Origin: an uncultured Legionellales bacterium
Lineage (GTDB): Bacteria; Pseudomonadota; Gammaproteobacteria; Eutrophobiales; Eutrophobiaceae
DNA length: 48,579 bases
NCBI GenBank assembly: GCA_913046215.1
Contig: CAJWRJ010000011.1
Span: forward strand, 1 to 48,579
Reading direction: 5' to 3'
In this document: positions 12,254 to 13,339 of the stretch, piece after piece
Layout: each line of letters begins with the position of its first letter
Position numbering within the stretch: the stretch's first letter is position 1
The notes under the pieces: generated by a model
Database searches by the model: none
Seen by the model: the letters and a program-made list of their open reading frames with translations, nothing else
What the model was told of the DNA's origin: nothing
Program-made: the position numbers and the translations under genes

Positions 12254-13339
12254 TTATTTTACCATTTTTTTGATGTTTCCGCGTTCCACGTGAAACATTG
12301 CGATATTATTTTTTTCTCTCTCTGTTTTCGATGGAGCAGCAATTGAACTAACAAATGTTTGGGTGTCGTTTGCTAGCAACAAATCGAGTGTTTTTTCCGA
12401 AGATGTTTTATCAAGCTCCGCATAAAGATCATCTACCAGCATTATCGGTGTTCCCCCTGTATCTTTGAGCTTTTCCAATTGTGTTGATATTAATGCCGCT
12501 GCAAACAGCTTGGTTTGCCCTCGCGATAAATGTTTGCCGACACCAAGCCCTTGATAATTAAAGCTTATATCTGTTCTGTGTGGTCCGGCGGTCGTAAAAC
12601 CTCTCATTGCGTCCATTTTTCTATTTTTTTTAAGCGCCTCTCTCAGACCCGTTTTACAGTAACTGTTGTTTGCATAATTAATCTCTGCGCCTTCAGACAG
12701 AACAGCGGGGAGGTGTTTGTTGTTAAGTTTGACCCCAAGATCCCTAAGGTATTTATCTCTCATCGCGTCAATTTCTGTTGCCTCTTTTTCAATTTGCCTT
12801 TCCCATCCTTCGATTTCGCTAGAATTAAACCCTCGAGAGCCCTTCAAAAGCATATTCCTGTGACGAAGTGCTTTGTGATAGTTTTTCCATGCCTCTAAAT
12901 AGCTTTGTTCCACGTGAAACAACGACCAATCAAGCCAGTGTCTGCGTTCTTTTGGGCTGCCCGTAAAAAGCTGCTGGTAGTTAGGAGTTAAAACGTAAAC
13001 CGGAAGGTTTTTAACTTGCTCCGAGGCCGTTTTCACTGGCTCCCCATTAAATTTTATCTGCGTAACTCCTCTTCCTTTCTCAACGCCGACTGAAAAATTG
13101 CTGTTTTCCGTCTTTCCTTTGGCAAAAACACTAAGCTTATCGCTCTTTTTTGTTATCACATCACTAATTCGTTTGCTTCTAAATGATTTCAAGCGAGAGA
13201 GCAAGTATATGCTCTCCAAGACTGATGTTTTTCCGCTCGCATTTGGGCCATAAAAAACATTCAGCGTCGGGCTTGTTTTTATTGTAAAGTCTTTTAGGTT
13301 GCGAATTGACCTTCCGGTAAGCTCTTCAATATAAAGCAT
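12254..13339 (-). CDS. recF: DNA replication and repair protein RecF
   Basis: SMC-like ATPase that helps load RecA at single-strand gaps, with RecO and RecR. The 361 residues show Walker A (GPNASGKTS, 31-39), the ABC signature [13 protein letters not shown] and Walker [13 protein letters not shown]. The start is 1 bp after the dnaN stop (TAAAATG). Two copies of the peptide FHVE, near residues 141-144 and 348-351, are encoded by codons that at the same time form 16-bp ParB-binding parS sequences. This is an unusual overlap of coding and chromosome-segregation information. Confidence 0.96.
12282..12297. promoter_or_regulatory. parS: parS site (ParB binding), 15/16 match
   Basis: CGTTCCACGTGAAACA differs from the classic parS TGTTCCACGTGAAACA only in its first base. 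It lies in the last codons of recF, at the peptide FHVE. ParB/Spo0J recognises such sites near replication origins in most bacteria, which fits the dnaA-proximal position. Confidence 0.85.
12906..12921. promoter_or_regulatory. parS: parS site (ParB binding), perfect match
   Basis: TGTTCCACGTGAAACA is an exact copy of a classic parS sequence. It lies within recF (about residues 140-145), 624 bp from the other site. The core CACGTG flanked by GTTC and GAAAC is fully conserved. A working parABS system outside this window is implied. Confidence 0.92.

Follow-up and report, generated by a model that had tools for sequence, protein, structure and literature searches.

parS sites embedded in recF across Gammaproteobacteria and the RecF codons and residues that accompany them

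Introduction

The origin region of an uncultured Legionellales bacterium raises the question of whether a short peptide that occurs twice in one protein, FHVE in RecF, is a motif of that protein or the translation of a DNA site carried within its gene. The window (the whole stretch of DNA analyzed here, 48,579 nucleotides of contig CAJWRJ010000011.1) contains a recF gene (12254..13339, − strand; 361 amino acids; TIGR00611, E = 2.1e-93, cut-off passed), in which a first-pass annotation, made from the letters of the window, had proposed two parS sites for the segregation protein ParB, one perfect and one with a single mismatch, each lying on FHVE codons in a separate part of the protein. It was further suggested that codon choice at these positions serves a protein motif and a DNA site at once, that FHVE recurs in other gammaproteobacterial RecF proteins, and that parS within recF is a widespread way of holding a centromere near the origin.

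Two parS Sites in the recF Gene of the Window

Both sites were located where the annotation had placed them, with their starts 624 bp apart. Site A (12906..12921, no strand assigned) reads TGTTTCACGTGGAACA on the coding (−) strand with 0 mismatches to TGTTYCACGTGRAACA, and its + strand sequence, TGTTCCACGTGAAACA, matches TGTTYCACGTGRAACA fully. Site B (12282..12297, no strand assigned) reads TGTTTCACGTGGAACG on the coding (−) strand and differs from TGTTYCACGTGRAACA in the outermost base alone (sequence CGTTCCACGTGAAACA, T1 to C); compared with the strict palindrome TGTTTCACGTGAAACA, sites A and B have one and two mismatches, respectively. On the coding strand, both are read as TG TTT CAC GTG GAA C(A/G), each 16-mer comprising the codons for FHVE, the last two bases of the previous codon and the first two bases of the next. 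The TTT CAC GTG GAA codons of site A (12908–12919) encode RecF residues 141–144, and the FHVE codons of site B (12284–12295) encode residues 349–352, in the context IAM-FHVE-R, nine residues short of the C-terminus. By the secondary structure of an AlphaFold model of RecF (pLDDT 93), site A falls in the break that separates helix 129–143 from helix 145–166, and site B lies on strand 346–352 of the C-terminal hairpin.

In the 1.40 Mb genome, which is 98.8% complete, these two sites are the sole matches with one mismatch or fewer to TGTTNCACGTGAAACA (+ reading) or TGTTYCACGTGRAACA, and a search of the whole 1.40 Mb detected no further canonical parS at 0–1 mismatch outside recF. A chance origin was rejected, as shuffled versions of the window gave 0.19 expected sites at three mismatches or fewer and at least two sites in 3 of 100 shuffles, genomes of the class most often have two parS, and reversed-pattern controls gave approximately 0. 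Neither site has lost its core codons in the window genome or in the family members G119 and G235. In another genome of this family (G332), no RecF match above the cut-off was found and parB remains together with one parS-like site; it is a close case of a centromere outliving its host gene.

The gene order at the locus is the standard dnaA-dnaN-recF-gyrB, with dnaA at the start of the operon (14633..15991, − strand; TIGR00362, E = 2e-179), followed by dnaN (13341..14441, − strand; TIGR00663, E = 1e-107), recF and, downstream of it, gyrB (9823..12231, − strand; NF011501 and TIGR01059, above cut-offs). The dnaA-rpmH intergenic region (15992..16164, no strand assigned) is what we take to be oriC, from the conserved dnaA/rpmH arrangement; this candidate contains one exact DnaA box (16048–16056), with a box count in the window that is not above chance, and lies approximately 3.1–3.8 kb from the two parS sites. 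The sites are thus near the presumptive oriC, at roughly 3–4 kb from the dnaA-rpmH intergenic region. The annotation had also suggested looking for parA and parB in the rest of the genome, and both were found, adjacent, on contig C9. A search placed the parB ortholog there (TIGR00180, 198.9 bits, above cut-off), with recognition-helix residues GRSR..SN, the same as in genomes with canonical parS; directly upstream is a 257-amino-acid ORF with KGGVGKTT, read from its sequence as parA, which is itself preceded by a gidB-like ORF.

Distribution of recF-Embedded parS

A class-wide sample of 369 Gammaproteobacteria genomes from approximately 180 families contained a recF gene above the family cut-off in 295 genomes, a match to the ParB of the window genome at E ≤ 1e-10 in 346, and parS with one mismatch or fewer in 315, the commonest number per genome being exactly two and the reversed control giving approximately 0. 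A pattern for DWxxFHVE in any codons was matched in 172 of these genomes, and the exact codons TTY CAC GTG GAA were used in all but two cases among the matches listed. In a phylum-wide sample, DWxxFHV(E/K) was found in 28 gammaproteobacterial genomes, every one on parS codons, and in 0 of 188 genomes of other classes in the phylum; the core was likewise absent from the nine RecF loci of other phyla that were inspected. Embedding of parS at these recF positions therefore looks specific to Gammaproteobacteria.

A second set of 80 named loci was found by the RecF N-terminal domain only (Walker A pattern) and was thus unselected for the sites. Leaving aside the families flagged as parB-less, 60 of these loci are gammaproteobacterial; 41 of the 60 carry two in-frame recF cores and 48 carry at least one, including those of Pseudomonas, Halomonas, Alcanivorax, Marinobacter, Microbulbifer, Pseudoalteromonas, Rheinheimera, Methylophaga, Stenotrophomonas and Psychrobacter. 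In alignments, the sites of the window stand, in frame, at the same homologous RecF positions as the recF-embedded parS of P. aeruginosa. FHVE is thus recurrent in gammaproteobacterial RecF proteins, in the class sample and in the named loci alike, and the class-wide counts and distribution bear out the suggestion of a widespread centromere near the origin.

In L302 (Pseudomonas chlororaphis EA105), FHVE at site A is encoded by TTC CAC GTC GAG and site B is intact, so that the counterpart of parS1, kept by the other sampled Pseudomonas loci, has been lost through synonymous change. Genome G271, which is 77% complete, has two recF loci of near-equal score on contigs C39 and C40, representing either a duplication or a mixed assembly. 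Among genomes with no RecF match above the cut-off, contig C157 of G330 (5797–5998) carries a tandem array of four parS at an exact 62-bp spacing, and G143, G256, G352 and G156 carry parS pairs 36–106 bp apart.

Codon Constraint at FHV(E/K)

The codons CAC, GTG and GAA or AAA are used at FHV(E/K) in 143 of 147 genomes at site A and in 138 of 144 at site B, where the codon usage of the same genes would predict 9.6 and 9.5 matches, respectively. Codon choice in relatives is thus far from random, so that, with parB present in the genome, neither of the two outcomes named in the annotation as refuting was seen. The synonymous codons are nearly frozen across the class, in agreement with the proposal that they serve a protein and a DNA site simultaneously. 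Conservation of a column does not by itself explain the codon choice, as shown by a control of 80 conserved RecF columns, in which the five most codon-invariant were H, V and E of site A and H and V of site B (0.91–0.97), the next-best column reached 0.77 and the median of the others was 0.36; a control His column in RecF uses CAT at 55%. The preference holds against base composition in both directions: in genes with GC3 < 0.4, CAC occupies 96 of 98 FHV positions versus 27% of other His codons, and in genes with GC3 > 0.7, 20 of 20 Glu codons of site A are GAA, versus 33% of other Glu codons. The constraint extends to the flanks, as the codon before the canonical core ends in TG in 137 of 143 cases (site A) and 114 of 138 (site B), and the codon after it begins with C in all cases at both sites. 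At site A it encodes one of H, P, Q and R; at site B the same four residues occur and, once, L.

RecF Residues That Follow the DNA Site

The positions left free in parS are those left free in the peptide, namely the wobble base of the Phe codon (Y) and the first base of the Glu or Lys codon (R), so that the alternation of E and K in the peptide corresponds to the R of the parS consensus. The two positions covary as expected of a palindrome, TTT occurring with AAA and TTC with GAA (odds ratio 9, p = 1.4e-8, GC3 controlled); base composition was rejected as the cause of this link, since the odds ratio of 9 persists under GC3 control, and the ratio is 7 when the gene's own use of Phe codons is controlled for. 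On the tree, E and K were exchanged at least 12 times at site A and at least 24 times at site B. Counted over independent pairs, TTT is found together with K about five times versus fewer than one at each site, and as the single-site sign tests gave median p values of 0.06 and 0.13, the phylogenetic test backs the direction of the covariation and is not decisive alone.

Genomes without the core indicate which residues RecF keeps for itself. In core-less RecF proteins, Phe is found at site A in 39 of 40, His in 26 of 40 and Val in 3 of 40, and at site B, proteins lacking parS still commonly have Glu and, where Val would stand, a hydrophobic residue. The view that the sites ride on a protein motif therefore holds for Phe and partly for His, which are kept for the protein; it fails for the Val-Glu/Lys part and its neighbors, which follow the DNA site. 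These latter residues change with the site or, in clean cases, with the loss of ParB.

Lineages without ParB or with parS Elsewhere

In clean genomes without a chromosomal ParB, the canonical recF core is present at either site in 0 of 11, versus 156 of 173 parB-positive genomes; because the recF loci retrieved for this comparison over-represent FHVE at site A, the latter count is not an unbiased frequency, and the named set and the class-wide pattern search were not so selected. In the named set, the canonical core was found in 0 of 10 loci of Enterobacteriaceae (broad sense), Orbaceae and Pasteurellaceae, a count that leaves out one probably mislabelled contig and groups Orbaceae as parB-less by analogy with the other two families, which lack parAB according to one report (PMC4368675). 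The contig in question (L360, CAMAQZ010000056.1, metagenome-assembled) has intact sites and is titled Klebsiella pneumoniae; this title was rejected as probably wrong, the RecF being 37% identical to that of Pectobacterium and 46% identical to that of an uncultured proteobacterium. RecF of E. coli has FHNE at site A and FTVE at site B. Within genus g31, the parB-positive G027 carries FHVE at both sites on parS codons, and the reduced genomes G173 and G281, in which no parB was found, carry FHAE and FHVK on non-parS codons. Cores without a detected parB occur in nine assemblies, mostly fragmented or incomplete ones, in which parB was most likely missed through assembly gaps. As only three independent losses of parB were counted on the tree, the association of parB loss with core loss is not significant by independent pairs when taken alone.

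A rule that the presence of parB entails parS in recF was also rejected: Vibrio-type genomes (f184) are parB-positive and have lost the canonical recF cores. They possess perfect parS elsewhere, which in G423, assembled as a single main contig, lies approximately 50–60 kb from parB, and their site B decays by a synonymous change of CAC to CAT. Named Vibrio, Marinomonas and Salinicola loci, read for recF cores alone, also have none. Since some parB-positive genomes are without one or both of the recF sites, recF is not an obligatory place for parS.

Changed parS Cores and ParB Residues

In six genomes (G024, G097, G003, G180, G166 and G354), the two recF sites differ from the canonical core in equivalent ways, and in each of these genomes the recF pair constitutes the only sites within one mismatch of TGTTYCAYRTGRAACA. 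G024 has TGTTCCACATGGAACA twice, with the peptides FHME and FHME; G097 has TGTTTCATATGAAACA twice, with FHMK and FHMK; G354 has CACATG twice, with FHME and FHME; G180 has CATGTG twice and G166 has CACGTA twice; and in G003, CACATG at one recF site is accompanied by its reverse complement at the other. Relatives with canonical cores include G016, a genus-mate of G166, and G145, a family-mate of G354. Outside recF, locus L209 (G047) contains two parS-like sites whose starts are 18 bp apart, GGTTTCACGTGAAACT and TGTTTCATATGAAACG, one with a canonical core and the other with a CATATG-type core.

The ParB proteins of seven variant-core or related lineages were compared with 51 canonical ones, and residues 156, 167 and 168 differ (p = 5e-6, 5e-4 and 9e-5, uncorrected for phylogeny or multiple positions); given the divergence of the variant ParBs and the uncontrolled phylogeny, these residues are regarded as a lead. 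Residue 167 of the window ParB, which differs in most variant lineages, aligns with T179 of Caulobacter ParB by the G-(K/R)-S-R...N spacing, and T179 is one of four switch positions described for that protein (PMC7383237). FHVE, FHVK, FHME and FHMK across Gammaproteobacteria are probably readouts of the parS that the ParB of each lineage recognizes, both RecF positions having changed together in at least five separate lineages (CACGTG to CACATG, CATATG or CACGTA). Such concerted change implies a drift in ParB specificity that imposed parallel changes on a protein unrelated to it, RecF, whose sequence would be the record.

Proposed Mechanism and Alternative Explanations

The two sites are very probably the parS centromere of this chromosome, embedded in recF at about 3–4 kb from the origin. 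By analogy with other bacteria, ParB, whose gene stands beside that of ParA on contig C9, would bind to each of the 16-mers, load there and spread across dnaA-dnaN-recF-gyrB, and ParA would then separate the newly copied origins. Because parS overlaps the codons, selection for ParB binding would freeze the synonymous codons CAC, GTG and GAA or AAA, demand a preceding codon mostly ending in TG and a following codon beginning with C, and dictate residues that RecF itself would not need, such as Val at site A and Glu or Lys. A change in the recognized parS would be expected to alter both RecF peptides together, and the loss of ParB to relax the constraint and let the codons or the peptide drift; retention of parS elsewhere may relax it too, as the Vibrio-type genomes suggest. 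It is plausible, from the modelled structure, that recF keeps this role as an origin-linked gene in which two positions, the helix break at 141–144 and the C-terminal hairpin at 349–352, tolerate imposed residues.

An opposite reading takes FHVE as a motif of the RecF protein and the match to parS as a by-product of favored codons. The Phe and His retained at site A of core-less proteins, and the Glu and hydrophobic residue common at site B without parS, are what it would expect, but it would yield the roughly 10 matches per site predicted from codon usage rather than the approximately 140 observed, it does not account for CAC at nearly all FHV positions of AT-rich genes, and it is at odds with the scarcity of Val at site A of core-less proteins. 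Nor is there a protein-level reason for the reversal of charge between E and K, the covariation of the Phe codon or the parallel V-to-M changes at two distant sites, and this reading is considered highly improbable. CACGTG-type palindromes serve other DNA-binding proteins too, and the sites might be bound by one of these, such as a regulator acting locally on the dnaA-gyrB operon, instead of ParB. In P. aeruginosa, an excess of ParB alters transcription of the operon (PMC5521831), so that a regulatory role could coexist with segregation. A different binder is nevertheless as improbable as a protein motif, given that the full 16-bp parS is matched, that the class-wide count is mostly two with a reversed-pattern control near 0, that the cores are lost after parB loss in clean genomes, and that ParB binding to recF parS has been demonstrated in P. 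aeruginosa (PMC4368675).

The sites could also be vestigial, inherited from an ancestor and no longer a working centromere in this organism. The Vibrio-type genomes offer a precedent, with CAT replacing CAC at site B and perfect parS elsewhere; in the window genome, by contrast, there is no other canonical parS and both sites retain their core codons, as in the family members G119 and G235, which leaves this explanation very unlikely, though by a shade less so than the other two. A working parS centromere within recF accordingly remains the preferred reading.

Implications

Across the class, the recF sites show with unusual clarity how a DNA-binding site fixes both codons and residues in a protein unrelated to it, for which the loss of ParB, the retention of parS elsewhere and the alteration of the parS sequence serve as natural controls. 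The parS type of uncultured gammaproteobacteria becomes readable from recF alone, and lineages are flagged whose ParB specificity probably shifted at the center of the site, which is directly testable. If this is true, the RecF sequence is a usable record of centromere evolution. The case also cautions against taking every conserved peptide for a protein motif: RecF positions 143–144 would be misread as functional residues.

Comparison with Known Systems

The principle is not new, since two functional parS sites of P. aeruginosa, parS1 and parS2, have previously been located in recF (PMC3909081, PMC4368675 and PMC5521831). The latter two reports describe that ParB binds these sites, that any one of parS1–4 is necessary and sufficient for segregation, and that an excess of ParB lowers the expression of surrounding genes, probably via its binding in recF (PMC4368675, PMC5521831). 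As in the window genome, the recF parS of P. aeruginosa lie close to oriC (approximately 4 kb), and TGTTCCACGTGGAACC and TGTTCCACGTGGAACA (parS1/parS2) are FHVE codons there; unlike the window genome, which has the two recF sites only, P. aeruginosa possesses two further high-affinity intergenic sites (parS3 and parS4) and six weak ones. The available parts of these papers contain no discussion of class-wide conservation or of an effect on the RecF sequence, and the literature search returned no report of either the conservation or RecF peptides following parS, with an earlier mention in Livny et al. 2007 being possible. As far as the search extended, the breadth of recF-embedded parS and its consequences for RecF are new, and the concerted recoding of RecF is a novel case.

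The system shares its ParB family and the consensus TGTTTCACGTGAAACA with the chromosomal ParABS of Caulobacter, Bacillus and others, but differs from these in placing parS at recF positions that were occupied in none of the 188 genomes of other classes or the nine loci of other phyla. The variant cores resemble the switch in specificity from ParB-parS to Noc-NBS (PMC7383237), in which a change in the DNA site is matched by a change in the recognition helix. Whereas that switch concerns positions 1 and 6, it is the central base pairs that change here (CACGTG to CACATG or CATATG), and the target lies in coding sequence.
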